A stretch of 43,087 nt of DNA, taken from NCBI GenBank assembly GCA_029257435.1, contig JARIBI010000200.1, forward strand, positions 1 through 43,087. The letters run 5' to 3'. Within the stretch, counting starts at the first letter, position 1. Every line of letters starts with the position of its first letter. The DNA comes from Sporosarcina sp. (lineage in GTDB: Bacteria; Bacillota; Bacilli; Bacillales_A; Planococcaceae). Under the pieces are notes generated by a model that saw nothing but the letters and a program-made list of their open reading frames with translations, made no database searches and was not told where the DNA came from. Below are positions 1,103 to 26,033 of this stretch, in pieces. The position numbers were made by a program, and so were the translations under genes.

Positions 1103-1228
1103 AATCGGTCAAATTGGAAGGGATATCGGCAATATAACAAGAACATTCGACCGTATCGCTTAAAGAATCGGACAAATCCGACAAACAATCGGCCATATGC
1201 TAGAATGAATCGGCCACAACTTGATGTG
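1103..1228. repeat. 21-bp repeat array A1 (6 units)
   Basis: Six consecutive units of exactly 21 bp begin at 1103, 1124, 1145, 1166, 1187 and 1208. Each starts with a version of AATCGGCCA (AATCGGTCA, TATCGGCAA, ATTCGACCG, AATCGGACA, AATCGGCCA twice) followed by 12 variable bases. This is the most diverged array in the window and carries no linker. It lies between the divergent NERD gene and helD, directly upstream of the helD promoter. Confidence 0.85.
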
Positions 1229-1250
1229 CGGAATTTTCCGACATTTACTC

Positions 1251-1279
1251 TTGCGCTTCGCAATTCCGAGTGGTACAAT
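1251..1279 (+). promoter_or_regulatory. Sigma-A promoter of helD
   Basis: The -35 box TTGCGC (1251-1256), a 17-bp spacer and the -10 box TACAAT (1274-1279) preceded by TGG (extended -10) predict a transcript start near 1286, about 70 nt before the helD start codon. Confidence 0.65.
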
Positions 1280-1355
1280 CGACTTCTGTTTAAAATTTTC
1301 CCCTATGATATCCGGAAACGACAGGACAAATTCTAGGAAAGCGGAGGATCTGTAC

Positions 1356-3581
1356 ATGCAGAGACACCCTGATTTTGAGTTTGAGGCTGAGCGTCTGGAC
1401 TACACAGTGCATTACATGCGACGGCTTTTGGAAGAGTCGCAGCGTGATGTCGACGCCTCTCAAGAACAAATTCGTCACGCGATGGCGGATTTGGATTATT
1501 TGGATTCCAGTATGAGTTACATTAACATCCTCACGAACACACGGTTTTTCGAAATGGCGAGGTCCCAGAAAGAGACCTTTGAGGCCATCCAGAAGAAGCC
1601 GTATTTTGCGCGCATCCACTTTCAGCCTGATGATGAAAAAGACCAATTTCTGTATATCGGTAAGACATCGGTGTTTCATCAGGAGACACAAGAACCCATC
1701 ATTGTCGACTGGCGATCACCTGTCGCGAACGTATATTACGATGGGCGTTTAGGTGACATGACGTACGATGTCCGCGGAGAAGAAGTGAGCGGTCATCTGC
1801 ATTCGAAGCGGCAATACCAGATTGAAGAGGGCGAGTTGCTGGATGTCCGGGATATTGACCTCACCACAAATGATGAGTTGCTTCAGGAAGCGCTTGCTGG
1901 AAAAGCGGACGTGCGATTGACGGAAATCATCTCGACAATCCAGTCGGAACAGAATGATATTATCCGCGCGAGTTTGCGTAAGCCAATCATTGTACAAGGG
2001 GCTGCAGGCAGTGGAAAGACGACGATTGCATTGCATCGTATTTCTTATTTTCTTTATACAAAAGGAACGGATTTTCCTGCTGAAAAACTGATGATTCTCG
2101 CACCCAGTAAATTATTCATGGACTATATCGGGGACGTGCTTCCCGAGCTCGGCGTGGGCAGTATTTGCCAGACGACGTTTGAGGAATATGTGCTGAATGC
2201 GACGGGGTTAAAACTGAAATTGACCGACACCAATAGCAAATTGGAAAGATTAGCGTCATCGGATTCATTGGATGAAACCACAATTGCCATTGCGAGGATG
2301 AAAGGGTCTGAAGTGTATCGCACCATCATCGCAAGGTACGTGAAAAAACTTGAGCAGCAGACAGTGGCACTTTTTGAAGATGTATTCATTGAAAACTATC
2401 GAATCATGGGTGCGAAGCGATTACGCAAACTGTTCTTGGATGACTTCGGCTACTTGCCGATTGAAAAGCGGCTGGAGCGCATTAAACTAATCATGAAATC
2501 TGAAGTGACACGGAAACGCAAACAACTTTATCAGTTATTGTCGGATAAATATGAGGCCGCGCTTGATAAAGCGTTATACGGCATTCGTGACGATGAAAAG
2601 CGCCGGGCTCGGATCACGCGCATCATGGACGAGCGGGATGAACGGCTACCGAAGATAGAAAAAGAAGGCAAGCAAAAGGTTGCTTCCTATATGAAGCGAT
2701 TTAAAAAGTTCAACGTGAAGCAACTGTATCGGAGTCTGTTGACGGATTCCGGCTTGCAAACAGAACTTGCGCCAGAGTGGTCAGAAGCGTTCAAGGTTTC
2801 ATTCCAGGAAGTCCATGCGAAAAACACGTGGGAAACAGAGGATTTGGCCGCACTTTACGATTTGCATGTACAGCTGAAAGGCATCGAGAGTGAATGGAAA
2901 ATGCGTGTCGTTTTCATTGATGAAGCGCAAGATTACAGTGAATATCAGCTGGCGGCGCTGCACGACGGACTAGAGACGGAATTGTTCACGCTGGTAGGTG
3001 ACTTGGCGCAGGGAATTCATAGTTATCGAGCGCTAACGTCATGGGATTCGGTGAGAAAAATGCTGCCGACCGCTACGTATACGACACTTCAGAAAAGTTA
3101 TCGAACGACGATTGAAATCATGAATTTGGCAAATCTAGTACTTGCGCAAATGGAGGAAGATTTGCCTTTGGTCGAGCCCGTCGTCCGGCATGGAATCGAA
3201 CCTGTATTTTATGAGATGAATGAACTGGACGTCAGCCGGGTGAGTGAAATCTATGAAACGATTGTAGGACGAGGGCATCGATCTGTTGCAATGATTTGTA
3301 AAACGAATGCCGAAGCGATGCGCCTTTTTAAAGTGTTGTCAGAGGGGGGCATGGCAGTCCAATTGCTCGATGACCAAAGCGACATTGACGATTCTCGCAT
3401 GCTGATTGTGCCAAGTGTCTTGTCGAAAGGACTGGAGTTTGACGCTGTCATTATGGCGGCATTTGACGATCCATTTCGAGTTTCACCAATTGATCGTAAG
3501 TTGCTGTATGTCGCGATGACACGGCCGATGCATGAGTTGCATGTGCTGGGAAATGCAGCAAAAGATGTATTAGGCAAATAA
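1356..3581 (+). CDS. helD: HelD-type RNA polymerase recycling motor ATPase (UvrD/Rep-like helicase)
   Basis: A 741-aa superfamily 1 helicase-like ATPase, close to the roughly 770 aa of B. subtilis HelD. HelD proteins bind stalled RNA polymerase and use ATP to release it from DNA and recycle it. Visible are a charged, coiled-coil-like N-terminus (residues 1-80), Walker A GAAGSGKTT (about 215-223), a Walker B/motif II segment FIDEAQD (about 519-525), the QKSYRTT segment of motif IV and a C-terminal YVAMTRP (motif VI). The ATG at 1356 is preceded by GGAGG with an 8-nt gap. A longer in-frame reading upstream has no ribosome binding site and would begin upstream of the predicted transcript start, so it was rejected. 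The gene is monocistronic, with its own promoter and terminator. Confidence 0.93.
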   Translation: MQRHPDFEFEAERLDYTVHYMRRLLEESQRDVDASQEQIRHAMADLDYLDSSMSYINILTNTRFFEMARSQKETFEAIQKKPYFARIHFQPDDEKDQFLYIGKTSVFHQETQEPIIVDWRSPVANVYYDGRLGDMTYDVRGEEVSGHLHSKRQYQIEEGELLDVRDIDLTTNDELLQEALAGKADVRLTEIISTIQSEQNDIIRASLRKPIIVQGAAGSGKTTIALHRISYFLYTKGTDFPAEKLMILAPSKLFMDYIGDVLPELGVGSICQTTFEEYVLNATGLKLKLTDTNSKLERLASSDSLDETTIAIARMKGSEVYRTIIARYVKKLEQQTVALFEDVFIENYRIMGAKRLRKLFLDDFGYLPIEKRLERIKLIMKSEVTRKRKQLYQLLSDKYEAALDKALYGIRDDEKRRARITRIMDERDERLPKIEKEGKQKVASYMKRFKKFNVKQLYRSLLTDSGLQTELAPEWSEAFKVSFQEVHAKNTWETEDLAALYDLHVQLKGIESEWKMRVVFIDEAQDYSEYQLAALHDGLETELFTLVGDLAQGIHSYRALTSWDSVRKMLPTATYTTLQKSYRTTIEIMNLANLVLAQMEEDLPLVEPVVRHGIEPVFYEMNELDVSRVSEIYETIVGRGHRSVAMICKTNAEAMRLFKVLSEGGMAVQLLDDQSDIDDSRMLIVPSVLSKGLEFDAVIMAAFDDPFRVSPIDRKLLYVAMTRPMHELHVLGNAAKDVLGK

Positions 3582-3588
3582 AAGCTAG

Positions 3589-3624
3589 AATCCCGCGAGC
3601 GATAGATGCGCTGCGGGATTTTTT
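3589..3624 (+). terminator. Terminator of helD
   Basis: Stem AATCCCGC/GCGGGATT, with an inner AGCG/CGCT pairing, is followed by TTTT shortly after the helD stop codon. Confidence 0.85.
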
Positions 3625-3639
3625 GTGTGGGGTGGGCGG

Positions 3640-4134
3640 AATCGGCCACATCTCGAAGGAAATCGGCCGCATAGCGGGAAGAATCAGCCACACGCCGCTA
3701 AGAATCGGCCACATGTGGGAATTAATCAGCCACGGGACACAACTCACTGGGATTAAGGGATTAATTGGTAGCGCTGCGCTTGTTTCGTGCAGTGTCCGCA
3801 CGCTGACCAATGGAATCGGCCAGATCTCGAAGGGAATCGGCCGCATAGCGGGAAGAATCAGCCACACGTCGCCAAGAATCGGCCAAATCCAGCGAACAAT
3901 CGGCCACATGAGGGAATTAATCAGCCACAGGCCACAACTTGCTACCGTTAAGGGATTAATTGGTAGCGCTCCGCTTATTTCGTGCAGTGTCCGCACGCTG
4001 ACCAATGGAATCGGCCACATCTCGAAGGAAATCGGCCGCATAGCGGGAAGAATCAGCCACACGCCGCTAAGAATCGGCCAAATCTAGCGAACAATCGGCC
4101 ACATGTGGGAATTAATCGGCCACGGGACACAAAT
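3640..4134. repeat. 21-bp repeat array A2 (17 units, two 69-bp linkers)
   Basis: Three blocks of 21-bp units: five from 3640, six from 3814 and six from 4009. They are separated by two linkers of exactly 69 bp (3745-3813 and 3940-4008). Units start AATCGGCCA or AATCAGCCA. Units in the same position of different blocks resemble each other, so whole blocks were duplicated. The linkers share TTAAGGGATTAATTGGTAGC, followed by a GC-rich segment. Because 21 and 69 are multiples of three, open reading frames run through the array on both strands; they have no ribosome binding sites and are considered spurious. The array lies between the helD terminator and the ydbS promoter. Confidence 0.93.
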
Positions 4135-4150
4135 CGCTCCATCGCATCCT

Positions 4151-4179
4151 TTGAAACTCCTGCTGAAATTTGGTGTAAT
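4151..4179 (+). promoter_or_regulatory. Sigma-A promoter of ydbST
   Basis: -35 TTGAAA (4151-4156), 17-bp spacer, -10 TGTAAT (4174-4179). It sits just outside array A2 and about 30 nt upstream of the ydbS start. Confidence 0.55.
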
Positions 4180-4209
4180 AAGGGTAGGCATAAACTAGGG
4201 GGATTCATA

Positions 4210-4707
4210 TTGAAGAATGACATTCAAGCACCGACCCAGCGATTAGCAGATCGTACAGTGTCAGCATTTAGGTGGGCATCGATTATCAGTCATGGGATAC
4301 TGCTTGTGGTTTTAGGGATCGTATACGCCGCCAGTTTGTACTTTTCGTGGTGGACGTGGACACAGTGGGTCGTATACATACTCGCGGGACTTACGGTGTT
4401 ATCGGGAATCTGGTCCATCGGATTCCGGCCGGTCTATTTACATAAACACTTCCGATATGGAGTTACGGATGAATTTCTGCAAATCAAATCGGGTGCGTTC
4501 CATGAACACTATGCGCTCATTCCGATGACGAAAATCCAGGCGGTTTCCACGAGCCAGGGGCCGGTATTAAGGCGGTTCAGTTTGTATACACTGGAAATCG
4601 AAACGATGGGGTCGAGTCATGGCATTCCTGGGTTGCCAAAGGAAGTAGCAATTGACGTTAGAAATCAAATTGCCCGCTGCGCGAAAATCAAGGAAGTGGA
4701 TGAATGA
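4210..4707 (+). CDS. ydbS: PH-domain membrane protein YdbS
   Basis: A 165-aa protein with two hydrophobic segments (about residues 20-40 and 48-68) followed by a bacterial PH-like domain (YdbS/YdbT family, bPH2). B. subtilis YdbS is 159 aa. The TTG at 4210 is preceded by AGGGGG with a 7-nt gap; the reading frame stays open upstream into repeat array A2 but no start there has a ribosome binding site. The stop overlaps the ydbT start (ATGA), so the two are translationally coupled. In B. subtilis the ydbST pair has been linked to resistance to amylocyclicin-type antimicrobial peptides; a membrane-protective role here is inferred from homology only. Confidence 0.87.
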   Translation: MKNDIQAPTQRLADRTVSAFRWASIISHGILLVVLGIVYAASLYFSWWTWTQWVVYILAGLTVLSGIWSIGFRPVYLHKHFRYGVTDEFLQIKSGAFHEHYALIPMTKIQAVSTSQGPVLRRFSLYTLEIETMGSSHGIPGLPKEVAIDVRNQIARCAKIKEVDE

Positions 4708-6179
4708 TGAACATGAAGCGCTATCACCCGTTATCCATCCTGTTCGAGTTCGCCGCATTTTTAAAAAGCTATGCCATCCTCGCGTTTGTCGTAGTTGTTA
4801 ACCTCAATTCGGACTCGTGGTTTGCCTGGCTCGGGCGTATCCTTTTGATCGCAGCAGTAGCCCTGACACTCATCGCCAGTATTATGAAGTGGTTTACCCG
4901 GAAATATGCAGCAGGTGAGCTTTCGTTTCATTTGAAATCGGGTACTTTTGAGAAAACAGAACGAACAATCTACTATGACAAAATACAGAACGTGCAGCGG
5001 CATACGTCATTTCTTCATAAACTGTTCAAAATGACTTCCCTTACCTTTGAAACGGGCTCGACGGGCATGAACTCCAATGTTAAATTCGATGTATTAACAC
5101 GTTCTGAAGCAAATCGGCTGGAAGCTTTCGTAAAGGAATTCATGCATGCTGAAAGTGTAACAAACCCACAGGAATCCGGAGCGGTTCTAGAGAAACCAAA
5201 GCGAATGGTGCACTTCACTCCAACCCGGAGCGATACGGTGAAAGCATCGTTCACGTCATTTAGCTTTTTACTCATAGTAGTAATTGGTGCGTCCCTCTTT
5301 TCTAAAATCAACCAGCTGTTCGATGTAGAGGATTATGTCGAAGGCTGGCTCGAGTCCGTTCTGACATCGGGCTGGCTCATTGCAGGAGTGACAGCAGTTC
5401 TCGTTGCACTCGCCGTGACGATTGGGATCATTTGGACGTTTGTCAAATATGGAACCTATGAAATTGCTTCAGACGAAAAGCGGATCTATATTTCTAAAGG
5501 GGTTTTGGATGAAACCGCGTTTTCCATCGCGAAGAATCGTGTGCAGGCAGTGGAAATTACTCAATCCTTCATGAAAAGAATTCTTGGACTTGCTGAAGTG
5601 AAGCTGATTAGCGCAGGGAATCTTGGAGAGGATGAGGATGAAGTCAGCACGCTGTATCCGTTTTTGCCGGTGAACCGGGCGTATGCCATGATTGCAGAGT
5701 TGCTGCCTGACTATGAAGTGATTACAGACAGCAGCCGATTGCCGCGTAAATCATTAATCGCCCGCCTCATCAAACCTTATTGGTTCTGGCTGATCATCAC
5801 GATCTTGCTAATTTATTTCAGGCCGGCAGTATTCAAATTAGATACAGGCTGGGCGGTTGTGTCAATCGCACTTCTGATTCTAATCATACTCAGCCGGATA
5901 CTCGGGTTTTGGAATACGTCCTATGCACGAAGAGGACGGTTCATTCAACTGAGTGAAGGGATATTTGGGAAAACGACGTTTATCACGCGGCGCGACAAAG
6001 TCATTGAAATATTCGTAAAGCGGACAAAACTTCAGCAGTGGTTCGGCCTTGCGACGATAGGATTTATTAACCGCGCTAAACCGGTGCGCTATGAAACGCT
6101 TGCGGACTTGCCGATTCAAGAAGCGAAGGAGTTCGCGGATTGGTATGCAGAGCGGACCGAAGAGGTGCAGTTACAATAG
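4704..6179 (+). CDS. ydbT: PH-domain membrane protein YdbT
   Basis: A 491-aa membrane protein matching the length of B. subtilis YdbT (about 493 aa). It has an N-terminal pair of hydrophobic segments, a first PH-like domain (about 70-150), a second hydrophobic pair (about 185-255) with a second PH-like domain, and a third pair (about 350-400) followed by a third PH-like segment. The repeated signature is a tract like YDKIQNVQ, KNRVQAVE and RDKVIEI, once per domain. It overlaps ydbS by 4 bp and forms a two-gene operon with it. Molecular function is not established; a partner role with YdbS in the membrane is inferred. Confidence 0.87.
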   Translation: MMNMKRYHPLSILFEFAAFLKSYAILAFVVVVNLNSDSWFAWLGRILLIAAVALTLIASIMKWFTRKYAAGELSFHLKSGTFEKTERTIYYDKIQNVQRHTSFLHKLFKMTSLTFETGSTGMNSNVKFDVLTRSEANRLEAFVKEFMHAESVTNPQESGAVLEKPKRMVHFTPTRSDTVKASFTSFSFLLIVVIGASLFSKINQLFDVEDYVEGWLESVLTSGWLIAGVTAVLVALAVTIGIIWTFVKYGTYEIASDEKRIYISKGVLDETAFSIAKNRVQAVEITQSFMKRILGLAEVKLISAGNLGEDEDEVSTLYPFLPVNRAYAMIAELLPDYEVITDSSRLPRKSLIARLIKPYWFWLIITILLIYFRPAVFKLDTGWAVVSIALLILIILSRILGFWNTSYARRGRFIQLSEGIFGKTTFITRRDKVIEIFVKRTKLQQWFGLATIGFINRAKPVRYETLADLPIQEAKEFADWYAERTEEVQLQ

Positions 6180-6250
6180 AGAAGTTTTAATCGGAACCAT
6201 TTCAGGAATAGGATAAGAAGTAATGTCTGTCTAATAGAGGGGTGGTTGAA

Positions 6251-7078
6251 TTGGGACGACGGAGAAAGTTTGGGAAAATGAGTGTTGTTGTACTCGTCAC
6301 GTATCTAGTAATGATTGTCATGAATTACCTGGCAAATGCGCTGCCGTTGAACGGGAAGACTACTGGAGAAGTATCGGATTCGTATAGTAATTTGTTTGCA
6401 CCGGCAGGCTATACGTTTGCCATTTGGGGACTCATTTATGTGCTGCTTGCTTTTCATGTCATTTATCAGCTCGGATTCTTCCGGTCTGGAGAACGGTCGG
6501 CTGTAACGCAGCTCATGCAGAAGATCGCGGTGTATTTTTCAGTTTCATCTGTCGCTAATGCACTTTGGATTTTGGCATGGCATTACGGGCACCTGGCCAT
6601 TTCGATTGTTTTAATGCTCGTTATGCTGATCAGTCTGATTATTATTAACGGCCTGACGGTGAAATCAGATCTGTCGTTCAAAGAGAAGTTCTTCATTCGG
6701 CTGCCGTTTAGTGTGTATTTTGGATGGATTACAGTTGCGACCATCGCGAATATCACAGCGTATTTTGTATCGATTGACTGGGATGGTTTCGGTCTGTCAG
6801 ATTCTACCTGGACGGTGATTATTCTCCTGGTTGGAACAGTTATCGGAATCGCAACGTTGTTGAAAAATTGGATTGCCTCATACGGGTTCGTTCTAGTGTG
6901 GGCGTATATCGGGATTTATAGCAAACATGTATCCCCGGAAGGTTGGAACGAAGCCTATCCAGGAATTATAATGACCGTTTCGATTTGTATTATTTTACTG
7001 GCGCTGCTCAGTCTATGGGTCCTTGTCAAGCGCCCGAAGAAACGGAATCGAAGAAACAACAAGTCTATGTTCAGATGA
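6251..7078 (+). CDS. TspO/MBR-related tryptophan-rich membrane protein
   Basis: A 275-aa integral membrane protein with about eight hydrophobic segments. Near the N-terminus the segment APAGYTFAIWGLIY matches the start of the TspO/MBR family (P-x-x-F-x-x-W-x-x-L/I-Y), and tryptophans are frequent (NALWILAW, FGWITVA). Classic TspO proteins are about 155-165 aa with five helices, so this is one of the longer relatives common in Firmicutes. The ligand (tetrapyrroles in classic TspO) is unknown here. The TTG at 6251 is preferred because GAGG-GGTGG lies 5-10 nt upstream; the GTG at 6242 overlaps that ribosome binding site. The C-terminus is strongly basic. Confidence 0.75.
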   Translation: MGRRRKFGKMSVVVLVTYLVMIVMNYLANALPLNGKTTGEVSDSYSNLFAPAGYTFAIWGLIYVLLAFHVIYQLGFFRSGERSAVTQLMQKIAVYFSVSSVANALWILAWHYGHLAISIVLMLVMLISLIIINGLTVKSDLSFKEKFFIRLPFSVYFGWITVATIANITAYFVSIDWDGFGLSDSTWTVIILLVGTVIGIATLLKNWIASYGFVLVWAYIGIYSKHVSPEGWNEAYPGIIMTVSICIILLALLSLWVLVKRPKKRNRRNNKSMFR

Positions 7079-7110
7079 TTTTTCGGTGAATACGATAAAG
7101 ATTGTTAGGG

Positions 7111-7138
7111 ACGCTTCGCATATGCGGAGCGTTTTTTC
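7111..7138 (+). terminator. Terminator after the TspO-like gene
   Basis: Near-perfect inverted repeat ACGCTTCGCA/TGCGGAGCGT (7111-7132) with a minimal TA loop, followed by a run of T. Confidence 0.85.
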
Positions 7139-7483
7139 TTTCCCAATACGAGAGAAACTATACAGAGTTATTAAATTGATTTAAATAAACCAAAGCCGTT
7201 TTATATGAATCAGCTTGTGTACAGTAGAGGGCGTCATGGAAGTCTCCCTAATTAATGATTATGCACAATAAATTCCAGTCAACGACACTCGTTTTAGGGG
7301 ACGCTGTGAAAGCTGCTGTCTTTTCGAATGTTTCTTATTGAAAATAACCGTCCTTTCCAAACATATACTGAACAAAACAAATCCAGTCGACTCAATCGGC
7401 TGGGTTTGCTTCGTTATCTAGTGGTATATTGATAGATAGAAGAGGGGACTGAATATTCAACTACAGGGATTGGGGGAATGGGG
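7139..7483. other. Intergenic region with one hairpin (7379-7407)
   Basis: This 345-bp gap holds no convincing gene. An 11-bp stem with G-U pairs (7379-7389 with 7397-7407, 7-nt loop) lies about 75 nt upstream of the ABC ATPase gene. It has no clean T run on the plus strand, and only ATTTGTTTTG on the minus strand. Its role (weak terminator or leader structure) is unclear. I found no confident promoter. Confidence 0.4.
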
Positions 7484-11689: not shown

Positions 11690-13003
11690 TTGAAAAGAGA
11701 AGCAAAAACGTATCGCAACTGGGCGGTACTGATCGTTTTGATGTTGACCATATCCTTCATATCACCAGTCATTGTAGAGGCAGATGGTTTCAGGGATGTA
11801 TCGCCGGCGTATAAAGAAGCCGTCACTTATTTAACGGAAAAAAACTATACGAATGGAATTTCGCCGACACTTTTTGGTACAGGTGACCCGATTACGAGAG
11901 GAAGTGCAGCGGTCATATTGGCGAATGCATTGGAGCTGCCGATGAACCCTGCAGAATCGCGCGGATTTTTAGATGTCCCTGCACGTGCAGAACAGGCTGT
12001 CAATGCTTTGAAGCATGCAGGAATCATACGCGGGAAAAGCGATTCGCGCTTCGGATTTACGGATTCGATAAAACGGGGTGAAATGGCGCTAATGCTCAGC
12101 CACGCCAAAGCGTATAATTTAACAGGAGATGCCTCTCGTATTGGCTTCCGTGATGTCAATAGCCGTTATGCTGAAGCTGTGGCTGGATTGGTTGCTAATG
12201 GGATCACAAAAGGGAAATCAGAAACTCGATTTGGAACGGATGATTTGCTGAAACGCGGAGAATTTGCAGTTCTTGTCTATCGTTCAGAAATGGACAAGTT
12301 GACAGAGGCGATGCCTAAGACGTATAGCGTGCTTGCGGATCAATTGAAAAGTGGAAACGTGAAGTCTATCAAATTGATCGGCGATAGTATTACTGCCGGA
12401 GCTGGCGGAAATGGCTATACAATCCCGGCAGACGGACGCGTGATTTTACAAGACGGGGAAGCGATTTATCGTGAATCATCTAAGCTTGCAGATACGTGGG
12501 CAAATCGATTCCGTGCATATGCTGAACGTCCAGAGTTCGGACAAGTCGATTTCTTCAATGCGGGCATTAGCGGGAAAACGGCTCAGTGGTCACTGGAGCG
12601 GAAAGACAAGCTGGTTTCATCCAAAGAAGATGTTGTCTTTGTGATGCTTGGTACGAACGACCGTCTCATTGGGGACCTCAATCAGTATGAACAAACGATT
12701 CGCAAGCTTTTATCTGAAGTAGACGAGCGTTCGAAGCTGATGGTTGTCATGGCACCGCCGCCTTCTACGCAGCAAATCGCACATTATCAATTTTCACCGG
12801 AAAGTATTAACAATCTTCTAAAACGAATCAGCAGCGAAAATGGATATGTGTTCGTGTCGCATTACGATGCAGTAAATGAGTTTTTAGAGCAGCATCCGGA
12901 CACAACTTATGAAGACTTGATGGAAACAAGGAGTCCTCATCCAACGAGCGCTGGGTATGAAGTGATGTGGAAAGCGATAGAGAGTAAGTTGCAGTTAAAA
13001 TGA
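11690..13003 (+). CDS. SLH-anchored SGNH/GDSL-family hydrolase
   Basis: A 437-aa secreted surface protein. The signal peptide occupies about residues 1-31 (ending VIVEADG). Three S-layer homology repeats follow at about 32-75, 90-135 and 148-195 (FRDVSP, FLDVPA and FRDVNS openings, each with an ITRG, IKRG or LLKRGE tract). A C-terminal SGNH domain covers about 225-437: block I IGDSITAG with nucleophile S233, an FFNAGISGKT stretch for block II, GTNDR for block III and SPHPTSAGY for block V with H417. The Asp usually found three residues before that His is replaced by Arg (RSPH), suggesting a Ser-His dyad or altered activity. SLH repeats normally bind pyruvylated cell-wall polymers. A wall-attached esterase role is inferred. 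The TTG start has GGGGGA upstream. Confidence 0.88.
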   Translation: MKREAKTYRNWAVLIVLMLTISFISPVIVEADGFRDVSPAYKEAVTYLTEKNYTNGISPTLFGTGDPITRGSAAVILANALELPMNPAESRGFLDVPARAEQAVNALKHAGIIRGKSDSRFGFTDSIKRGEMALMLSHAKAYNLTGDASRIGFRDVNSRYAEAVAGLVANGITKGKSETRFGTDDLLKRGEFAVLVYRSEMDKLTEAMPKTYSVLADQLKSGNVKSIKLIGDSITAGAGGNGYTIPADGRVILQDGEAIYRESSKLADTWANRFRAYAERPEFGQVDFFNAGISGKTAQWSLERKDKLVSSKEDVVFVMLGTNDRLIGDLNQYEQTIRKLLSEVDERSKLMVVMAPPPSTQQIAHYQFSPESINNLLKRISSENGYVFVSHYDAVNEFLEQHPDTTYEDLMETRSPHPTSAGYEVMWKAIESKLQLK

Positions 13004-13010
13004 ATACAGC

Positions 13011-13042
13011 AAACCCCCTTCAAGAGTTTTTGAAGGGGGTTT
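13011..13042. terminator. Bidirectional terminator between the SLH-SGNH gene and nanE
   Basis: A perfect 13-bp inverted repeat (AAACCCCCTTCAA and its complement) with a 6-nt loop lies between convergent genes and can serve both. Confidence 0.85.
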
Positions 13043-17919: not shown

Positions 17920-17932
17920 TAGCTGTATCATC

Positions 17933-19104: not shown

Positions 19105-20013
19105 TGGCTGATTAATTCGCTCGAGTGTCCGATTGTCAGCGGGATATGTCCGATTCCTGTTGCTGAGTGGCCGATTCTTCCCGGCATTTGGCCGATACTC
19201 AGCGCCAAGTGTCCGATTCCCCCGCTGCAGCGCGGTAGCCCGTCCCTCAACGCGGGAAGCGCCACCAATTAATCCTTTAAAGTGGTTGAATTGTGTGCCG
19301 TGGCTGATTAATTTGCTCGAGTGTCCGATTGTGGGCCGGATATGTCCGATTCCTGTTGCCAAGTGGCGGATTCTTCCCGGCATCTGGCCGATACTCAGCG
19401 CCAAGTGGCCGATTCAACCGCGCAGCGCGGCAGCCCATCCCTCAACGCGCGAAGCGCCACCAATTAATCCCTTAATGTGGTTGAATTGTGTGCCGTGGCT
19501 GATTAATTCGCTCGAGTGTCCGATTATCAGCCGGATCTGTCCGATTCCTATTGCCGAGTGGCCGATTCTTCCTGGCATCTGGCCGATATTCAGTGCCAAG
19601 TGTCCGATTCAACCGCGGCAGCGATGCAGCCCGTCTCTCAACGCGCGAAGCGCCACCAATAAATCCCTTAACGCTGTTGAATTGTGTGCCGTGGCTGATT
19701 AATTTGCTCGAGTGTCCGATTGTCAGCGGAATATGGCCGATTCCTGTTGCCAAGTGGCCGATTCTTCCCGGCATCTGGCCGATACTCAGCGCCAAGTGGC
19801 CGATTCCCCCGCGGCAGCGATGCAGCCCATCCCTCAACGAGCGAAGCGCCACCAATTAATCCCTTAACGTAGTTGAATTGTGTGCCGTTATCTAGAAATT
19901 CCGCTAAATGTCGGAGAAATACAAAGAGTTAATTGGTAAAGGGCACTTAGTGATCAAGAACACATTCCAAGCGTCGGCCAACGACGAATATGTGTCGGCC
20001 TCCCCCTAAATGC
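19105..20013. repeat. 21-bp repeat array A3: four 196-bp super-repeats plus a second 21-bp module
   Basis: Four super-repeats begin at 19105, 19301, 19496 and 19692 (spacing 196, 195, 196). Each comprises six 21-bp units (TGGCTGATT, TGTCCGATT and TGGCCGATT starts) and a linker of about 70 bp containing the shared core CGCCACCAATTAATCC. The orientation is opposite to A1 and A2: the reverse complement aligns with A2, including the unit AATCAGCCACGG and its flanking ACACAA. From 19888 to 20013 six further segments keep exact 21-bp spacing but with different starts (TTATCTAG, TGTCGGAG, TAATTGG, TGATCAAG, CGTCGGCC, TGTCGGCC). The array separates the divergent ytaF and rbsK genes. Confidence 0.93.
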
Positions 20014-20064
20014 TCCAATTTAATTGACTACTCAAAAAATCTTCAACTCCCTTACGGAAAATCA

Positions 20065-20094
20065 TTGCCCCAACCAAACGCTCTATGCTATCCT
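20065..20094 (+). promoter_or_regulatory. Promoter of rbsK operon
   Basis: -35 TTGCCC (20065-20070), 18-bp spacer, -10 TATCCT (20089-20094). The operator begins 8 bp after the -10 box, covering the expected start site. Confidence 0.5.
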
Positions 20095-20101
20095 AAAAAT
20101 G

Positions 20102-20115
20102 TGTAATCGGTTACA
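20102..20115. promoter_or_regulatory. LacI-family operator at rbsK
   Basis: TGTAATCGGTTACA is a palindrome with a central CG (TGTAAYCGRTTACA), typical of LacI-family operators. A one-mismatch copy lies at the nupC promoter, beside the LacI-type regulator gene, which is the probable binder. Confidence 0.75.
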
Positions 20116-20163
20116 TATAGAAATGAAGTTCCTGTCTACTACTACTTGAAAACAGGTGATGAA

Positions 20164-21066
20164 TTGGAGAAACGTATTGTCGTTGTCGGCAGTTTAAATA
20201 TGGATATTATTATCTCAACAGATCGCTTGCCCCAAATCGGAGAAACGATTCTAGGGAACGAAGTCAACTACCTTCCCGGAGGAAAAGGCGCCAATCAAGC
20301 AGTCAGCATTGCACGCCTCGGCGGCGATGTTACAATGATTGGGGCTGTCGGGCAAGACGAATTCGGGAAAAGCTTACTCGAACAAATGGCTGAAAACCAA
20401 GTGAACACGGCGTTTATCGACCAAGTCGAAGACGTTAAAACAGGCATCGCGGACATTTTTCACGTCAATCATGACAACTGTATCGTCGTTGTTCCTGGTG
20501 CGAATTTCACACTGACTCCTGATAAAATCACTCCAGAAATGGAGCGGCTTATCGCTCAATCGGACGTGTTGTTAACGCAACTCGAAATTCCTCTTGAAAC
20601 GGTTCAAAAAGTCTTGGAAATCGCAAACAAACATAATGTAAAAACGATCCTGAATCCAGCACCTGCACAAACATTGCCTGCAGAATTGCTGCACCTCGTC
20701 GATTATTTGACACCGAATGAAACGGAATTTGCGTTACTTGCTGAGCGCTCGTTCACAACCAATGACGAGCTCGAAAAACTTATGACGGAGTGGGAAGCTG
20801 CGTATAACCAAACGATGATCGTCACACTTGGCGAGCAAGGAAGCGCACATTTGCAAGACGGCAAACTTGTCGTTACACCTGCTGAAAAAGTGGAAGTCGT
20901 TGATACGACTGGCGCAGGTGACTCGTTTAACGGTGCGCTTGCCATCAGCATTGCGGAAGAAAAATCACTTCCTGAAATGCTTGCATTCGCAACAAAAGTT
21001 GCAGCCCGGGCAGTCACGAAGTTCGGCGCGCAAGACGGTATGCCATTTGCAGCTGATTTGGATTAA
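20164..21066 (+). CDS. rbsK: Ribokinase
   Basis: A 300-aa PfkB-family kinase that phosphorylates ribose to ribose-5-phosphate. N-terminal VVVGSLNMD, the GGKGANQAV sugar-binding motif (about residue 40) and the C-terminal DTTGAGDSFNGA motif (about 245-256, with the catalytic Asp) are all intact and characteristic of RbsK. TTG 20164 is chosen because it matches the usual ribokinase N-terminus and has AGGTGA upstream, although the gap is short (4 nt); the TTG at 20146 lacks a ribosome binding site. First gene of an operon with the M20 pseudogene and the nucleoside hydrolase, where ribose released from nucleosides would be its substrate. Confidence 0.92.
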   Translation: MEKRIVVVGSLNMDIIISTDRLPQIGETILGNEVNYLPGGKGANQAVSIARLGGDVTMIGAVGQDEFGKSLLEQMAENQVNTAFIDQVEDVKTGIADIFHVNHDNCIVVVPGANFTLTPDKITPEMERLIAQSDVLLTQLEIPLETVQKVLEIANKHNVKTILNPAPAQTLPAELLHLVDYLTPNETEFALLAERSFTTNDELEKLMTEWEAAYNQTMIVTLGEQGSAHLQDGKLVVTPAEKVEVVDTTGAGDSFNGALAISIAEEKSLPEMLAFATKVAARAVTKFGAQDGMPFAADLD

Positions 21067-21090
21067 TTCACACAAAAAGGAAACGATACG

Positions 21091-21948
21091 ATGGAAACGA
21101 TTTCTGTCCAAAGGATTGAAGAACGCCTCGACGGGTATCTCCGGGATACATACAAGCATTTACACATGAACCCCTAATTGAGTATGGAAGAAACGAATAC
21201 TCAAGGCTTCATTTAGCAAGAATCGGATCACATTGGCACTACACACAGAGCGATGGCGAAAACAGGTGTCTGCGCGGAAATTTCGGGAGCGGCCTCTGTA
21301 AAGACGATTCTTATGCGTTGCGACATTGACGCATTGCCAATCGAAGAAGACACTGGACTCGACTATAGCTCGACAAATAAAGGTGTCATGCATGCGTGCG
21401 GTCACGATGCGCACACGACGATCGGTCTCGCGATTTTAACAATTTGATAACGGAGTCATCATGTTCGGAACTATCAATGGCGGGACGACTTCCAACATAC
21501 TCTGCGGCCGTGTGGAAATCTCAGGAACAGTTCGTACCATTAAAACAGAAACCCAAGATAAAATTGCATCGCAACTTGAAGTGCTGCTTCGTTCCATCAC
21601 TGATATCTGGGGCGGATCGTATGAATATACCTACAGCAAAGGCTATCCAGCGAGCTGGAATGATCCTGAACTGACAGACGTGTTAACAAATCGGTCACTT
21701 CAACGTTTGGAGACCAATTTGTTGTTGTCAATGAACACCCGTATATGTGCGGCGACGATTTCTCAATCGTTGCAAGCGAAGTTCCTTCGATCTTCATGTA
21801 TTGGGGCACGGGTTCATCTGAAAAGGAGAACTTTCCTTGGCATAACGCTAACTACCGTGTAAATTTGGATGCGCTGAAATATGGCGTTGCGACAGGCTTA
21901 CACTGCATTACGGAACTACTAGAATATGAAAAGGTGGGACAAGCATGA
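21091..21948 (+). pseudogene. Decayed M20-family amidohydrolase
   Basis: Remains of an M20 metallopeptidase/amidohydrolase gene. It starts at ATG 21091 with AAAAGGAAA upstream. In-frame nonsense codons occur at 21175-21177 (TAA where related proteins have Glu, in HMNP-stop-LSMEE) and 21214-21216 (TAG). The metal-binding segment MHACGHDAHTT is still readable near 21390-21420. After 21447 the frame changes and a central stretch is missing; later pieces (GRVEISGTVRT and MCGDDFSIVASEVPS) are in other frames. About 858 bp remain, against roughly 1.15 kb for an intact gene. It lies between rbsK and the nucleoside hydrolase and its last codons overlap the latter's start (ATGA), so the ancestral operon had a coupled amidohydrolase whose role in nucleoside use is unknown. 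Confidence 0.9.
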
Positions 21949-22865
21949 AAAAAGTGATCATTGACGTAGATACTGGTATTGACGACGCAATCGGGATTTT
22001 ACTTGCGGAAAAGAGCGGGGAAGCTGACATCCTCGGCATTACGACGGTGAACGGCAACACGTCTTTAGAACAAGCGACGATCAATACACGTAAAGTGACG
22101 ACATTGCTTGGTCGTGACGACTTGAAAGTGGTTCAAGGAGCATCCCGCCCATTAATACGCGAACCCTTTTTCGAAGTGAGTGTACACGGGAATGACGGAA
22201 TTGGCGGCGCGCTGAAAGACATGAAAGTGGAAATACGCGATGAAGGATTTGCACCTGATTTCATCATCGAACAAGCGAAACAGCATCCGGGTGAGATTAC
22301 AGTAATTCTGCTTGCCCCACTCACAAATATGGCGCTTGCAATCCGCAAAGAGCCGCGTCTCAAAGAGTGGCTGAAAGAATTCGTTATCATGGGAGGGGCT
22401 GTCGACCATCCAGGCAATATTACACCAACCGCAGAGTACAACATGTACATCGATCCGGAAGCTGCAAAAATTGTCTTCCATTCAGGGATTCCGATTACGT
22501 TAGTTGGACTTGATGTGACAGCGAACACATTGCTGACGAAAAAAGACGTCGAAGCCATTCAACCAGGTCCTGCACGGGACTTCGTTGCGGAATCCACGGT
22601 TCATTACATGAATCATTATTTAAAGCGAAACGGTCACGAGGCATGTTCGATGCATGATCCGCTCGCAGTTGGAGTTGCCCTCGATCGTACACTCGTGAAA
22701 ACGGAGAAGTACTTCGTTGACGTTGAAACGAAAAGTGAGCTGTGTGATGGACAAACCGTTTGTGACTTCAAAAATTATTACAAGAAAGAACCGAATGTGG
22801 ACGTATGCATGGCAGTGGATGACGCACGATTCATCCGGAAACTTGTGGACACGTTAGGGAAGTAA
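21945..22865 (+). CDS. Inosine/uridine-preferring nucleoside hydrolase
   Basis: A 306-aa nucleoside N-ribohydrolase (IunH/Rih family) that splits nucleosides into base and ribose. The calcium-binding N-terminal motif DVDTGIDDA (residues 7-15) is intact, with further conserved segments NGNTSLEQATINT, LLAPLTNMALA, EYNMYIDPEAA and the C-terminal MHDPLAVG. Length is normal. The start overlaps the end of the M20 pseudogene. Pairing with ribokinase and a NupC transporter under a common operator makes it the catabolic core of the locus. Preference for purine or pyrimidine nucleosides cannot be told from sequence. A strong terminator follows. Confidence 0.92.
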   Translation: MKKVIIDVDTGIDDAIGILLAEKSGEADILGITTVNGNTSLEQATINTRKVTTLLGRDDLKVVQGASRPLIREPFFEVSVHGNDGIGGALKDMKVEIRDEGFAPDFIIEQAKQHPGEITVILLAPLTNMALAIRKEPRLKEWLKEFVIMGGAVDHPGNITPTAEYNMYIDPEAAKIVFHSGIPITLVGLDVTANTLLTKKDVEAIQPGPARDFVAESTVHYMNHYLKRNGHEACSMHDPLAVGVALDRTLVKTEKYFVDVETKSELCDGQTVCDFKNYYKKEPNVDVCMAVDDARFIRKLVDTLGK

Positions 22866-22877
22866 CCAATTGGGAGG

Positions 22878-22907
22878 AGTCTGACAACGGAATGTCAGAC
22901 TTTTTTT
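22878..22907 (+). terminator. Terminator of the rbsK-hydrolase operon
   Basis: Perfect 9-bp stem AGTCTGACA/TGTCAGACT with a 6-nt loop and seven T. Confidence 0.9.
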
Positions 22908-22932
22908 ATTCAATTTTTCAAATAGAAAGCAG

Positions 22933-23034
22933 ATGCTCCAGCCGCTCATTAGCAACGGCTTGCTTGTCGGAGTGCTGCTGTCTGTAGTCATGGAAATTAT
23001 ATCCAGTGATAAACGGAAGGAGCTCGCCCATTAA
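22933..23034 (+). pseudogene. C-terminal remnant of a nucleobase permease (NCS2-like)
   Basis: A 33-codon stretch from ATG 22933 to TAA reads MLQPLISNGLLVGVLLSVV, then a short polar tail. This resembles the last membrane helix of xanthine/uracil permeases (a QPLLSNGLLxG pattern), recalled from the family rather than searched. It has no ribosome binding site and lies just after a terminator, so it is probably the 3' end left by a deletion. A purine permease would fit the neighbouring nucleoside genes. Confidence 0.55.
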
Positions 23035-23045
23035 GGGAGCTCCTT
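23017..23045. terminator. Inverted repeat between the permease remnant and the LacI gene
   Basis: AAGGAGCTC pairs with GAGCTCCTT, followed by TTTATT on the plus strand. It overlaps the end of the permease remnant and probably was its terminator; it also lies immediately after the LacI-type gene stop on the minus strand. Confidence 0.7.
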
Positions 23046-24038
23046 TTATTCATTCATCGTAGATTGTTTGGCAATTAGGGAGACCGGAAAGACTCGGTCG
23101 GTAACGATGTCTGGTTCTTTTCGGATTAACCTGACCAGTGAATCCATTGCGGTTTTGCCGAGTTCGTATATCGGCTGGGCAATCGTCGACAGTTCCGGTG
23201 TCATCATCTCTAACCCGATTCCGTCAAAACCGATCACTTTCACGTCCCGAGGAACGCGTTTCCCTGCTTCATGCAAGGCTTTCAGCGCACCTGCCGCCAT
23301 TAAGTCATTGCTTGCAAACACACCGTCTAAATTTGGATGAAGCGTCAGCAGCTCTTTCATCGTGATATAGCCGCCATTAACGGTGAAATCACTATAGCCG
23401 ATCAAACTCGGGGTGAACCAGTCCGTTCTGCGGCTTGCATCCTCAAAGCCGGCGGTCCGTTCCCGGGATGAAGTAATCGTCAAGGGCCCGCATATATGGG
23501 CAATTTTCGAGCATCCTTGTGTGAGCAAATGCTCGACGGCCAGTTCACCGCCGCGCCGGTTTTCAACGGTAAGGGAAACCACAAAGTCATTGGAAAACAC
23601 ATTGTCCATCAGAACGACAGGGATGGACTGTTTTTGCAGTCCGTTTAAGTGTTCGGGCTCGATTGTATAGGAAGAAATAATGATTCCGTCGACTTGTTTT
23701 TGAAGCAGTGTGTCTATGTACTTTTGTTCTTTCAACGAGTCGTTATCTGTGTTGCATAACACGACCGTGTAGCCGTATTCGTTGGCAGCATCTTCGATTG
23801 AGCGGGCGAGCTCAGGGAAAAAAGGATTCAGAATATCGGGGACCATCAAACCGATAGTAGCGGTTTTCATCCCAGCAAGACTCCTTGCGATATTATTCGG
23901 CCGATAATTGAGCTTATCAATGACTTCTGAGATGGTAGCTGCAGATTCTTTACTGACATAGCCGTTCTTGTTCAAGTATCGGGAAACGGTTGCTACTGAA
24001 ACGCCTGCTAACTTGCTTACATCTTTAATTGTAGCCAT
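23046..24038 (-). CDS. LacI-family regulator of the nucleoside/ribose genes
   Basis: A 330-aa repressor: an N-terminal LacI helix-turn-helix (TIKDVSKLAGVSVATVSRYL, residues 3-22, with the hinge helix NIARSLAG about 50-57) and a periplasmic-binding-protein-like ligand domain (about 60-330). ATG 24038 has GGAG upstream; the reading frame continues further upstream only into the regulatory region. It is divergent from nupC and lies downstream of the ribokinase-hydrolase operon. Both those promoters carry the same CG-centred palindrome, so this protein is the expected repressor, released by ribose or a nucleoside (inference). It resembles RbsR/PurR-type members in length. Confidence 0.9.
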   Translation of the reverse strand: MATIKDVSKLAGVSVATVSRYLNKNGYVSKESAATISEVIDKLNYRPNNIARSLAGMKTATIGLMVPDILNPFFPELARSIEDAANEYGYTVVLCNTDNDSLKEQKYIDTLLQKQVDGIIISSYTIEPEHLNGLQKQSIPVVLMDNVFSNDFVVSLTVENRRGGELAVEHLLTQGCSKIAHICGPLTITSSRERTAGFEDASRRTDWFTPSLIGYSDFTVNGGYITMKELLTLHPNLDGVFASNDLMAAGALKALHEAGKRVPRDVKVIGFDGIGLEMMTPELSTIAQPIYELGKTAMDSLVRLIRKEPDIVTDRVFPVSLIAKQSTMNE

Positions 24039-24055
24039 CAGTATCTCCTCTGTTA

Positions 24056-24069
24056 AGTAATCATTTACA
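24056..24069. promoter_or_regulatory. Possible degenerate operator upstream of the LacI gene
   Basis: AGTAATCATTTACA resembles the operator at rbsK and nupC but has a central CA instead of CG and further mismatches. It lies about 18 nt before the regulator's start codon and could mediate weak autoregulation; it may also be chance. Confidence 0.3.
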
Positions 24070-24131
24070 CAAATATACCAAATATTATGGAACCATTCAA
24101 GGTGCGTTAAATAGTATGTCACAATTTGTTA

Positions 24132-24161
24132 TTGACGCTCCTATTCAACCTGTGGTAAATT
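24132..24161 (+). promoter_or_regulatory. Promoter of nupC
   Basis: -35 TTGACG (24132-24137), 18-bp spacer, -10 TAAATT (24156-24161). The operator follows 3 bp after the -10 box, much as at rbsK. Confidence 0.55.
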
Positions 24162-24164
24162 ATA

Positions 24165-24178
24165 TGAAACCGATTACA
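24165..24178. promoter_or_regulatory. LacI-family operator at nupC
   Basis: TGAAACCGATTACA differs by one base from the perfect palindrome TGTAACCGATTACA, and matches the rbsK operator in reverse complement. It overlaps the expected transcript start, a position for simple repression. Confidence 0.75.
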
Positions 24179-24214
24179 CATCGTGTTACAATGCATTTAC
24201 ATGAGGAGATACTA

Positions 24215-25444
24215 ATGAACATCTTAACTGGCTTACTTGGGTGTCTCGTCATTCTTTTCGTTGCTTTTTTGCTCTCAGACAACAAACGCAAAATCAATTA
24301 CCGCGTCGTAGTAATTGGAGTTACGATGCAAATTTTCTTTGGTTACCTCGTTTTAAAGTCTTCAGGCGGCCGAGCAGTAATTGAAAAGTTTTCTGGCAGT
24401 ATCCAAAACGTGATCCATTACGGAAATGAAGGACTCGCATTCGTATTTGGAAGTCTCGCGGATTCATCCGCTCCGACAGGTTTCATCTTTGGAATCCGGG
24501 TGGCAGCAATGGCGATTTTCGTCACTGCGCTCATTTCTCTGCTTTACCACTTGGGCATTATGCAATTTTTCGTCCGGATTGTCGGCGGAGGATTGGCAAA
24601 AGTTCTAGGAACAAGCAAGCCGGAATCCCTTACTGCAGCCTCTAATATTTTCTTAGGGCTTCAAGAAGCACCGCTTATTATTAAGCCATACATTAAAACA
24701 TTAACACGTTCAGAATTGTTCGCTGTCATGGTGGGCGGACTCGCATCAGTAGCGGGCGGAACGATGCTCGCATACGCAGCACTCGGTATCCCAATCAATT
24801 ATTTGCTGTCTGCAAGTTTTATGGCGGCTCCGGCAGGCCTCGTGTTTGCTAAAATTTTAATTCCTGAAACAGAAGTTCCGAAAAACGTTGTAGATGATGA
24901 ACCGAAAGAATTGATTAGCGAAGGCGGAGTGAAGCCAGGCGCAATCGATGCAGTCACAAAAGGTGCTGCTGAAGGATTGAAAATGGCAGGGCTAATTATT
25001 GCAATGCTGATTGCATTCATCTCGCTTCTAGCCATGGCGAACGGCATTCTTGGCGGAATCGGTGGCTGGTTCGGTCATCCAGACATTTCACTTCAGCAGA
25101 TTTTCGGGTACATCTTCTCCCCACTGGCGTTCGCAATGGGCGTGCCTTGGTCTGAAGCAATGACAGCAGGTAACTTGCTCGGTCAAAAAGTAATCTTGAA
25201 CGAGATGGTCGCATTCACATCATTCCAGCCAATGATTGAAGCGCTGTCGGATAAAACCGTCGCAATCTTGACATTCTCGTTATGTGGATTCGCGAACATC
25301 GGATCCCTCGGAATCCTAATTGCCAGCATGACAGCATTTGCTGAAAACCAGCGCGCCGTTGTTGCGAAACTAGGTTTCAAAGCAGTCATCGCAGGTACGC
25401 TCGCAAACCTGATGAGCGGTACAATCGCTGGTATGTTTATGTAG
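24215..25444 (+). CDS. nupC: NupC-family concentrative nucleoside transporter
   Basis: A 409-aa carrier of the concentrative nucleoside transporter family, which imports nucleosides with protons or sodium. Multiple membrane segments are present, with family motifs GLQEAPLIIKPYI (about residues 148-160) and the C-terminal half PWSEAMTAGNLLGQKVILNE and FSLCGFANIGSLGI. ATG 24215 follows GAGGAGA; an upstream in-frame ATG would start before the promoter and was rejected. It is the uptake arm of the nucleoside regulon, divergent from its probable repressor. Confidence 0.92.
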   Translation: MNILTGLLGCLVILFVAFLLSDNKRKINYRVVVIGVTMQIFFGYLVLKSSGGRAVIEKFSGSIQNVIHYGNEGLAFVFGSLADSSAPTGFIFGIRVAAMAIFVTALISLLYHLGIMQFFVRIVGGGLAKVLGTSKPESLTAASNIFLGLQEAPLIIKPYIKTLTRSELFAVMVGGLASVAGGTMLAYAALGIPINYLLSASFMAAPAGLVFAKILIPETEVPKNVVDDEPKELISEGGVKPGAIDAVTKGAAEGLKMAGLIIAMLIAFISLLAMANGILGGIGGWFGHPDISLQQIFGYIFSPLAFAMGVPWSEAMTAGNLLGQKVILNEMVAFTSFQPMIEALSDKTVAILTFSLCGFANIGSLGILIASMTAFAENQRAVVAKLGFKAVIAGTLANLMSGTIAGMFM

Positions 25445-25458
25445 ATGAATTGCAAAAA

Positions 25459-25487
25459 AAGCACCCGCAGCTGCGGGTGCTTATTTG
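25459..25487 (+). terminator. Terminator of nupC
   Basis: A 24-bp perfect palindrome (AAGCACCCGCAG and complement, 25459-25482), preceded by A7 and followed by ATTTG. Confidence 0.8.
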
Positions 25488-25523
25488 CATGAAGGGGAGT
25501 GGGGGGCGATGAATTCTTGGGAT

Positions 25524-26033
25524 TGGCCGATTGTCCAAGCTGAATGGCCGATTGTTTGCTCCAAGTGGCCGATTCACCCCGGGGTCTGGCCGATTCCGCA
25601 AGCTATGTGGCCGATTCCAACACGAAGCTGGCCGATTCCACTATTCTCCGTTATCTAGCCATCCCTAAACGCGCGAAGCGCCACCAATAAATCCCTTAAC
25701 GCAGTTGAATTGTGTGCAGGTGCCGATAAATTCAAGGACATGGCCGATTGTTTGCTCCAAGTGGCCGATTCCCCCCGGTATCTGGCCGATTCCCAAAGCC
25801 AAGTGGCCGATTCCAATACGAAGCTGGCCGATTCCACTATTCTCCGTTATCTAGCCCGTCCCTCAACGCAGTTGAATTGTGTGCCGTTATCGAGAAACTC
25901 CGTGAAGTGTCGGAGAAATGTCCGTGAGTGATGGAGAACTTCATCTAGATGATCGACAAACACCCATAACTGACAGACAAATCCGAGACTATGATAATGA
26001 GAACCAGCACGCCATATAAATGAAAACCAGCGC
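25524..26033. repeat. 21-bp repeat array A4 with second 21-bp module
   Basis: Six units of 21 bp from 25524 (TGGCCGATT starts), a 70-bp linker (25650-25719) with the same core as A3, one variant unit at 25720 (GTGCCGATAAA) and five units from 25741. A shortened 41-bp linker follows (25846-25886). From 25887 to 26033 seven segments keep 21-bp spacing with the second-module starts (TTATCGAG, TGTCGGAG, TGATGGAG, TGATCGAC, TGACAGAC, TGATAATG, CATATAAA). The orientation is the same as A3. It lies between the nupC terminator and the 3' side of the GNAT gene. Confidence 0.92.

Follow-up and report, generated by a model that had tools for sequence, protein, structure and literature searches.

Phased arrays in a Sporosarcina contig

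The window, that is the whole stretch of 43,087 nucleotides analysed here, is contig C27 (JARIBI010000200.1) of the 3.37-Mb draft genome of a Sporosarcina species, which is distributed over 251 contigs. Between its genes lie four arrays of 21-bp units, each with a 9-bp conserved core and a 12-bp variable spacer, at a frequency far above chance. An earlier note on this DNA had given the four coordinate ranges correctly, and its estimate of nearly 60 units agrees with a count of about 59 units of the AATCGGCCA type, degenerate ones included. The exact core word AATCGGCCA occurs 31 times on the two strands of the window, with 0 or 1 occurrence in each of 20 Markov shuffles. When one mismatch was allowed, 73 matches were obtained as compared to 7–16 in 10 shuffles, and 45 same-strand neighbour pairs among these matches are spaced by exactly 21 bp. 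Tandem Repeats Finder reported periods of 21 bp, 42 bp, and 195/196 bp at the arrays. In line with the remark of the earlier note that no named element was known, a search of the open-access literature (subscription journals being outside the search) yielded no description of such arrays.

The units are organised in modules. In the window and 15 stretches of the same genome 37 of 47 blocks contain exactly six units, a few of the contigs behind these blocks being near-duplicates of each other. The remaining ten blocks have 2, 3, 4, 4, 5 (five times), or 7 units, and five of the ten are from locus L175. Together with a conserved linker of about 63 bp, which follows most blocks, this gives a repeated module of about 195 bp, occurring singly or in tandem. 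The linker consensus is CGGGACACAATTCAAC-N-GC-N-TTAAGGGATTAATTGGTAGCGCTTCGCTTGTTT, part of its conservation being by construction since the regular expression used to collect linkers fixes some of the bases. Three classes of core words share one frame, AATCGGCCA (A), AATCGGCAA (a), and a second word resembling TCTCCGACA (B). With nhmmer 328 linkers were found in the stretches fetched from seven carrier genomes (see below), 327 of which could be anchored and read upstream in 21-bp steps. For the second word (241 rows) position six had a mean information of 0.63 per core base and position seven one of 0.06; for AATCGG words (86 rows, 83–85 at later steps) the values were 0.91 and 0.06. Values of 0.13–0.24 were obtained at the eighth and ninth positions, which reach neighbouring linkers or flanks. 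The orientation of modules is uniform in 136 of 136 clusters, which have 1–7 linkers per site and in 92 cases more than one.

The 21-bp unit and the 9-bp core of the earlier note thus stood, but the six-unit module, the linker, and the switching of words had been overlooked. Likewise, its ranges 19105–20013 and 25524–26033 hold as arrays, but their right-hand parts consist of the second word. The features of the window are collected in Table 1. In the degenerate block at its left end block chaining took in positions 1166–1216 only, and the search with the linker model yielded no match there.

Table 1. Array features of the window.
Feature	Position	Strand	Details
Degenerate single block	1103..1216	+	no recognisable full linker; direct reading, core matches
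Cores of the degenerate block, six 21-bp positions	1103, 1124, 1145, 1166, 1187, 1208	+	direct reading
Module 1 of 3	3640..3813	+	five AATCGGCCA units and linker (model match 3724-3785)
Module 2 of 3	3814..4008	+	six units and linker (model match 3919-3979)
Module 3 of 3	4009..4140	+	six units; linker cut off after first bases, no model match
Four six-unit modules	19105..19896	-	19105-19218, 19301-19414, 19496-19609, 19692-19805
Linkers of these four modules	19249-19309, 19444-19504, 19640-19700, 19836-19896	-	
Second-word block (TCTCCGACA type)	19887..20000	-	feeds linker 19836-19896; register analysis, bounds approximate and register-computed; four of five scored units recognisable, class string BBB-B
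Two first-word modules	25524..25845	-	linker 25667-25729 between; six units at 25524-25637; five exact and one diverged (direct reading) at 25720-25833
Second-word block with shortened linker	25859..26000	-	shortened linker 25859-25896; class BBBBB; unit words TCTCGATAA, TCTCCGACA, TCTCCATCA, TGTCGATCA, TGTCTGTCA, TCATTATCA

Cores and spacers change at different rates. Among 224 duplicate pairs, defined as lying within 1.5 kb of each other with arrays at least 70% alike, mismatches were found at 819 of 10080 core positions (8.1%) versus 2206 of 13440 spacer positions (16.4%). When one pair was taken from each locus file (53 pairs), 142 of 2385 core positions (6.0%) and 306 of 3180 spacer positions (9.6%) differed, the cores being slower than the spacers in 43 pairs and faster in 9. 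Cores in duplicates thus change at 0.5–0.6 of the spacer rate.

The phase between tandem modules is 195 or 205 bp, differing by about one turn, which is suggestive; as it represents essentially one independent event it was left unused. By eye, three contig pairs of the same genome carry nearly the same array and flanks, namely C73/C193, C87/C209, and C142/C157, and near-duplicate loci are L178:5113-5226 and L183:3702-3815, L179 and L184, and L180 and L182. The contig pairs could be either true duplications or a mixture of strains in the 251-contig draft.

Gene context

Gene calls were simple open reading frame (ORF) calls backed by BLASTP between genomes. Conserved ORFs are overlapped by more than 10% in 18 of 136 array spans, as compared to 103–122 (mean 112) in 100 random placements, and the intergenic position noticed earlier was therefore borne out by this enrichment check. 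The occurrence in both orientations was also confirmed, arrays being found on the plus and the minus strand in the window and at the loci of G152, a carrier genome available as a single contig. Two conserved neighbours could be assigned to 110 spans, 39 of which lie between convergent genes, 24 between divergent genes, and the others between tandem genes, 23 in the same sense as the genes and 24 in the opposite one. For comparison, all gaps above 150 bp in these loci (n = 375) comprise 206 tandem, 94 divergent, and 75 convergent ones. The absence of a strand bias in tandem pairs argues against a role in the transcript and also against a role as operators.

The seven genes flanking the arrays of the window encode a NERD-domain protein, a UvrD-like helicase, a PH-domain protein, a manganese efflux pump, a PfkB kinase, a nucleoside transporter, and a GNAT protein, and their Pfam names are unrelated to one another. 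The degenerate block is located between two divergent genes, those of the NERD-domain protein (44–1009, minus strand) and of the UvrD/HelD-like helicase (1221–3581, plus strand). As judged by eye, one cluster in stretch L173 reaches into a start region with a promoter-like stretch, and several arrays are found closely 3' of the terminator of the upstream gene.

Coding and RNA tests

Protein coding was considered and rejected. Stops interrupt 84–85 of 117 elements even in the best frames, and the spacings of tandem modules, taken modulo three, are distributed as 18, 22, and 16. As arrays of other words (see below) have a period of 20 bp, which is not a whole number of codons, the period fits the helix rather than codons. 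The earlier note had mentioned similar repetitive reading frames in other Bacillales. Two ORFs formed by the arrays had no protein match at E ≤ 0.001, but arrays of other words turned out to be common in the genus.

The alternative of a structured RNA, also raised in the note, was not supported. RNAalifold predicted 0 pairs on 60 linkers, and eight folds (seven regions, one of them on both strands) had z-scores from -1.5 to +0.8. In five sources Rfam yielded no match at the arrays at gathering scores. The single Rfam match was a SAM riboswitch (RF00162, 71.8 bits) at L173:13219-13316 (plus strand, contig C23), about 200 bp beyond the array block at 12907–13020.

Distribution among carrier genomes

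A pattern of two AATCGGCCA words at array spacing was found 208 times in the whole genome of the window with up to two mismatches, and a reversed control pattern 0 times. The element is dispersed, as had been proposed, and not confined to the four places in the window, and the pair also occurs in relatives. With up to one mismatch the pair was found in 11 of 250 genomes of the family, with 152 occurrences in G000, 66 in G152, 6–7 in G213 and G217, and one in each of seven others. The exact linker pattern is present in 7 of 261 family genomes, all from the genus of the window, with no match of the control in any of the 261. A linker profile based on sequence only gave 49–78 copies in each of these seven carriers and 1–3 weak ones in three more genomes; in G253 one weak linker match was found by nhmmer. 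The seven carriers form a tight clade, their Upp protein being 99–100% identical to the query from G152, with the next relatives at 93%.

The word classes are distributed unevenly among the carriers. Class A predominates in G000 (A 34, B 8), class B in G152 (B 28, A 15, a 1), G190 (B 57, a 2), G213 (B 56, A 1, a 1), G116 (B 33, a 4), and G217 (B 33, A 2), and class a in G157 (a 21, B 14); 17 of the 327 modules could not be classed. Of the 88 clusters in which two or more modules could be classed, 21 contain mixed word classes. Sites were assigned to 32 flank groups by their reciprocal-best flanking ORFs. Six or all seven genomes are represented by arrays in 10 of these groups, and just one genome is in 12. 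The grouping was by single linkage, some groups merging neighbouring sites, and as the stretches had been chosen for holding arrays, sites free of them were not countable. In shared flank groups the word class differs between genomes, and different words are thus found in shared gene neighbourhoods.

On the single contig of G152 (3,203,634 bp, dnaA at 3,183,771) a symmetric placement near the origin was suggested at first and then rejected, because the full list consists of a cluster on one arm and scattered loci. A rule linking orientation to the replication strand was rejected as well, as loci in both orientations occur on both arms. The dif pattern of Bacillus subtilis, with three mismatches allowed, had no match in seven genomes.

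Among the matches listed in a wider scan of contigs, which are mostly single pairs, the word pair was found at two loci of Sporosarcina sp. NCCP-2716. These loci share 69–77% DNA identity over 1.7–4.4 kb with stretches from the genus of the window (15 longest BLASTN matches), pointing to Sporosarcina as the probable genus. In one of them (L062:5694-6014) the word-pair matches are located in a gap between two blocks which align to carrier stretches, indicating a neighbourhood common to both, though L062 has no linker match. A viral scan gave five stretches with one pair each.

Arrays with other words in relatives

The gap between glyA and upp was read in 41 of the 68 genomes of the genus; in seven of them the stretch does not reach glyA, and a maximum of 1500 bp in front of upp was taken instead. 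In 26 of the 41 genomes (5 of the 7 carriers and 21 of the 34 non-carriers) 6-mers recurred at lags 20 or 21 more than in any of 200 shuffles. Of 23 lags compared, 20 or 21 came out best in 32 of the 41 genomes. The carriers G152 and G190 failed in this test (15 and 3 of 200 shuffles) despite the modules which they hold at glyA-upp, and the test is therefore insensitive. The words at this one site are unrelated as judged by eye: TGTCCGATA, TGGCCGATT, GCGCTCAAGAA, GCGCTCATAAG, CGCATAAA, ATAGAGCGG, TGATAACTT, ACCGCGCAA, and GAGTTTCCC. A half-site GCTC appears, by eye only, to be common to many of the words from non-carriers.

A de novo scan for clusters covered 100 kb each, around or near upp, of the non-carriers G085, G227, G175, and G021. 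At lags 20/21 it found 14, 2, 15, and 0 clusters, respectively (31 in 400 kb), and 0 clusters in each of the four at each of ten other lag pairs ranging from 12/13 to 32/33. Carrier stretches had 24 clusters at 20/21 versus 5 at all other pairs in G152, 9 versus 1 in G190, 5 versus 0 in G217, and 16 versus 1 in G157. In 78 loci of other taxa from the wider contig scan (588 kb), a control that had itself been ascertained on a 21-bp pair, there were 5 clusters at 20/21 and 7 at the other pairs taken together. All but one of the 14 clusters in G085 lie outside ORFs of at least 120 amino acids. In G175 units of the TACGTTTCGATACG type extend over about 750 bp in two clusters within a nominal ORF (L341:8370-9126).

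Two word pairs were counted across 261 genomes, all tagged with the same genus or family. Pairs of GCGCTCA are present in 60 of these genomes, with at least 10 pairs in 25 and the highest numbers in G202 (471) and G243 (385). Pairs of GCTCATAA are present in 63 genomes, with at least 10 in 19, and occur in all seven carriers (51 in G000), for which they constitute a second array family with mostly 20-bp spacing, e.g., at 226668–226836, 304321–304748, and 352291–352338 of G152:C1. Weakly matching linkers of the first family are found close to some of these G152 arrays, at 304.2 and 352.5 kb. The reversed control of the two patterns was zero in most genomes, but gave 74–106 matches in G049, G127, and G170 (genus g14), 9–48 in G035 (g17), and as many as 18 in some further genomes (G095, G099, G167, and G180 among them). 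These matches are probably arrays of yet other words, those in G049, G127, G170, and G035 suggesting a word containing ACTCGCG at 20–21-bp spacing, and the control is consequently no clean null in such genomes. In Pseudalkalibacillus decolorationis (L106) an array of the close word GTGGCCGATT with 20–21-bp spacing, missed by the cluster detector, was seen by eye; as all 261 genomes belong to the same genus or family, L106 is the only indication of a spread beyond the family.

Interpretation

The two-turn phase, the fixed small number of units, the conserved cores with freer spacers, and the lack of a strand preference argue for cooperative binding on one face of the DNA. The arrays are read here, tentatively and with a confidence just short of even, as phased docking platforms with fast-changing words for one or more oligomerising DNA-binding proteins, having a chromosome-organising rather than a gene-regulatory role. 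Each module would present six short recognition words on one helix face, two turns apart, followed by the conserved linker. A sequence-specific protein would oligomerise along the DNA, fill all six words, and form a local nucleoprotein body in the manner of ParR, a ribbon-helix-helix protein, on parC. As strand and gene context matter little, the role is likely to be in the organisation of the chromosome, be it compaction, tethering, segregation, or regional insulation, and not in the control of neighbouring genes. The occurrence of 20-bp as well as 21-bp periods, both amounting to two helical turns, points to a helical constraint. The recognition word would turn over fast between lineages, modules with a new word displacing old ones at existing sites, perhaps via exchange through the shared linkers. 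The second-word blocks at the edges of first-word clusters (19887–20000 and 25859–26000) suggest such a replacement. Rewriting of words by lineage would resemble the turnover of centromeres or of the PRDM9 type. A wider proposal, that a family of Bacillales keeps chromosome-wide phased docking arrays in which architecture and sites persist and words are rewritten in each lineage, is conceivable but rather doubtful.

Several known systems invite comparison. Plasmid iterons, to which the initiator binds cooperatively, are direct repeats in helical phase with a length of about 20 bp. They share with the present arrays the short direct repeats, the length of about 20 bp, and the helical phase, but the arrays are dispersed over the chromosome and the seven genes next to those of the window do not include a rep gene. 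REP/BIME and ERIC elements are small dispersed intergenic repeats in many copies which are palindromic; the arrays are likewise intergenic and numerous, but consist of direct repeats with no predicted stem. CRISPR arrays have near-identical repeats of about 23–50 bp and unique spacers. This possibility was rejected since the unit found here measures 21 bp including its 9-bp core and the 12-bp spacers recur between modules; cas genes were not searched for. At the ends of loci neither terminal inverted repeats nor target-site duplications, the marks of a MITE or transposon-derived repeat, were seen by eye, with no formal search for them.

The nearest studied platform is parC of the type II ParMRC plasmid partition systems, a statement on how the arrays could work and not on kinship. 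The parC of pSK41 has 20-bp repeats bound by ParR, direct repeats of 10–20 bp seed the ParR solenoid, the specificity of ParR decides incompatibility, and the repeat differs between plasmid families (PMC9426499). The direct repeats of about two helical turns in pSK41 and their small number have their counterpart in the 21-bp phase and the six units of 37 of 47 blocks, and as in parC the repeats would act as one platform. Unlike parC, of which each plasmid has one locus near parM and parR, the arrays occupy dozens of chromosomal loci. By Pfam names, the seven genes flanking the arrays of the window include neither parM nor parR, the genome itself not having been searched for ParR.

Several findings weigh against docking platforms. 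The cooperative one-face binding proposed in the earlier note agrees with the measurements, but no protein binding the arrays was found. The presence of several words in one genome requires several proteins or one lax protein. Convergent sites are over-represented (39 of 110 spans versus 75 of 375 gaps), which may indicate a role at transcript ends. There was no linker match in 58 of 68 genomes of the genus, with filters that lose weak matches, and 6 of 41 glyA-upp gaps had zero recurrence at lags 20/21. The sample of the congener G021 had no arrays, and of three other genera two had no clusters at 20/21, the third having 3. In G175, 8 of 15 clusters lie inside nominal ORFs of at least 120 amino acids, which may be formed by the arrays themselves. 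The linkers of duplicate pairs differ by 13%, and those of the closest pairs by more than the spacers, the figure of 13% probably being inflated by truncated last linkers of clusters. Finally, the map of G152 is lopsided, 22 of 29 loci with altogether 49 linker copies being located at 70–838 kb, and local spreading of a repeat would give the same picture.

The main rival is a composite repeat of the pneumococcal BOX kind, either parasitic or neutral, which spread in the past, now multiplies mainly by tandem duplication and conversion, and brings no benefit to the host. BOX of Streptococcus pneumoniae (boxA-boxBn-boxC) is described as a modular, composite dispersed repeat of variable size, thought to be parasitic, with ORFs on both strands, a predicted RNA fold, and a variable number of boxB (PMC3049150). 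Compared by description and not by sequence, the six-unit array with its linker is similarly composite, but no fold is predicted for it, the number of units is nearly constant at six, the helical phase is strict, and words switch at shared sites. Such a repeat would explain the modularity with 1–7 linkers per site in uniform orientation (136 of 136 clusters), the patchy occurrence in the genus, the regional clustering in G152, and the restriction of 12 of the 32 flank groups to a single genome. It does not account for the slower change of cores than of spacers in duplicates or for the abrupt end of the phased positions after the sixth in 327 copies, and unrelated words with the same two-turn period, even at one site, would not be expected from one spreading element. 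A BOX-like repeat is therefore considered a serious though unlikely explanation.

Operator arrays, in which classical regulators bind multiple sites and control the neighbouring genes, appear improbable. Divergent gaps are also occupied (24 of 110) and the L173 cluster comes near its promoter-like stretch, but tandem pairs show no strand bias (23 versus 24), the excess is in convergent gaps where promoters are not expected, and the seven flanking genes are unrelated. Slightly less credit still is given to an RNA element, i.e., transcribed modules whose units act as structured or protein-sponging RNA. Long arrays of like words could titrate an RNA-binding protein and several arrays closely follow a terminator, but the linkers and folds gave the negative results described above, Rfam had no match at the arrays, the strand is not biased relative to tandem genes, and the spacing is helical rather than free. 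A product of mutation or replication slippage copying DNA in two-turn steps, with functionless arrays, would yield unrelated words with one common period, but is the least probable of all as it should make whole units equally alike, whereas cores are conserved, 12-bp spacers vary, and the arrays stop after six units.

If the arrays are parasites, they represent a repeat family with an unexplained helical rule. If they are docking arrays, they would constitute an undescribed chromosome-organising system of bacteria with rapidly evolving DNA specificity and, if bound, would reveal a layer of chromosome organisation or segregation built on dozens to hundreds of sites in each genome. Such a system may have gone unnoticed, since its words vary from species to species and its arrays resemble junk ORFs. 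With architecture and sites constant and words changing, the co-evolution of a DNA-binding specificity with its many sites would become testable in bacteria.

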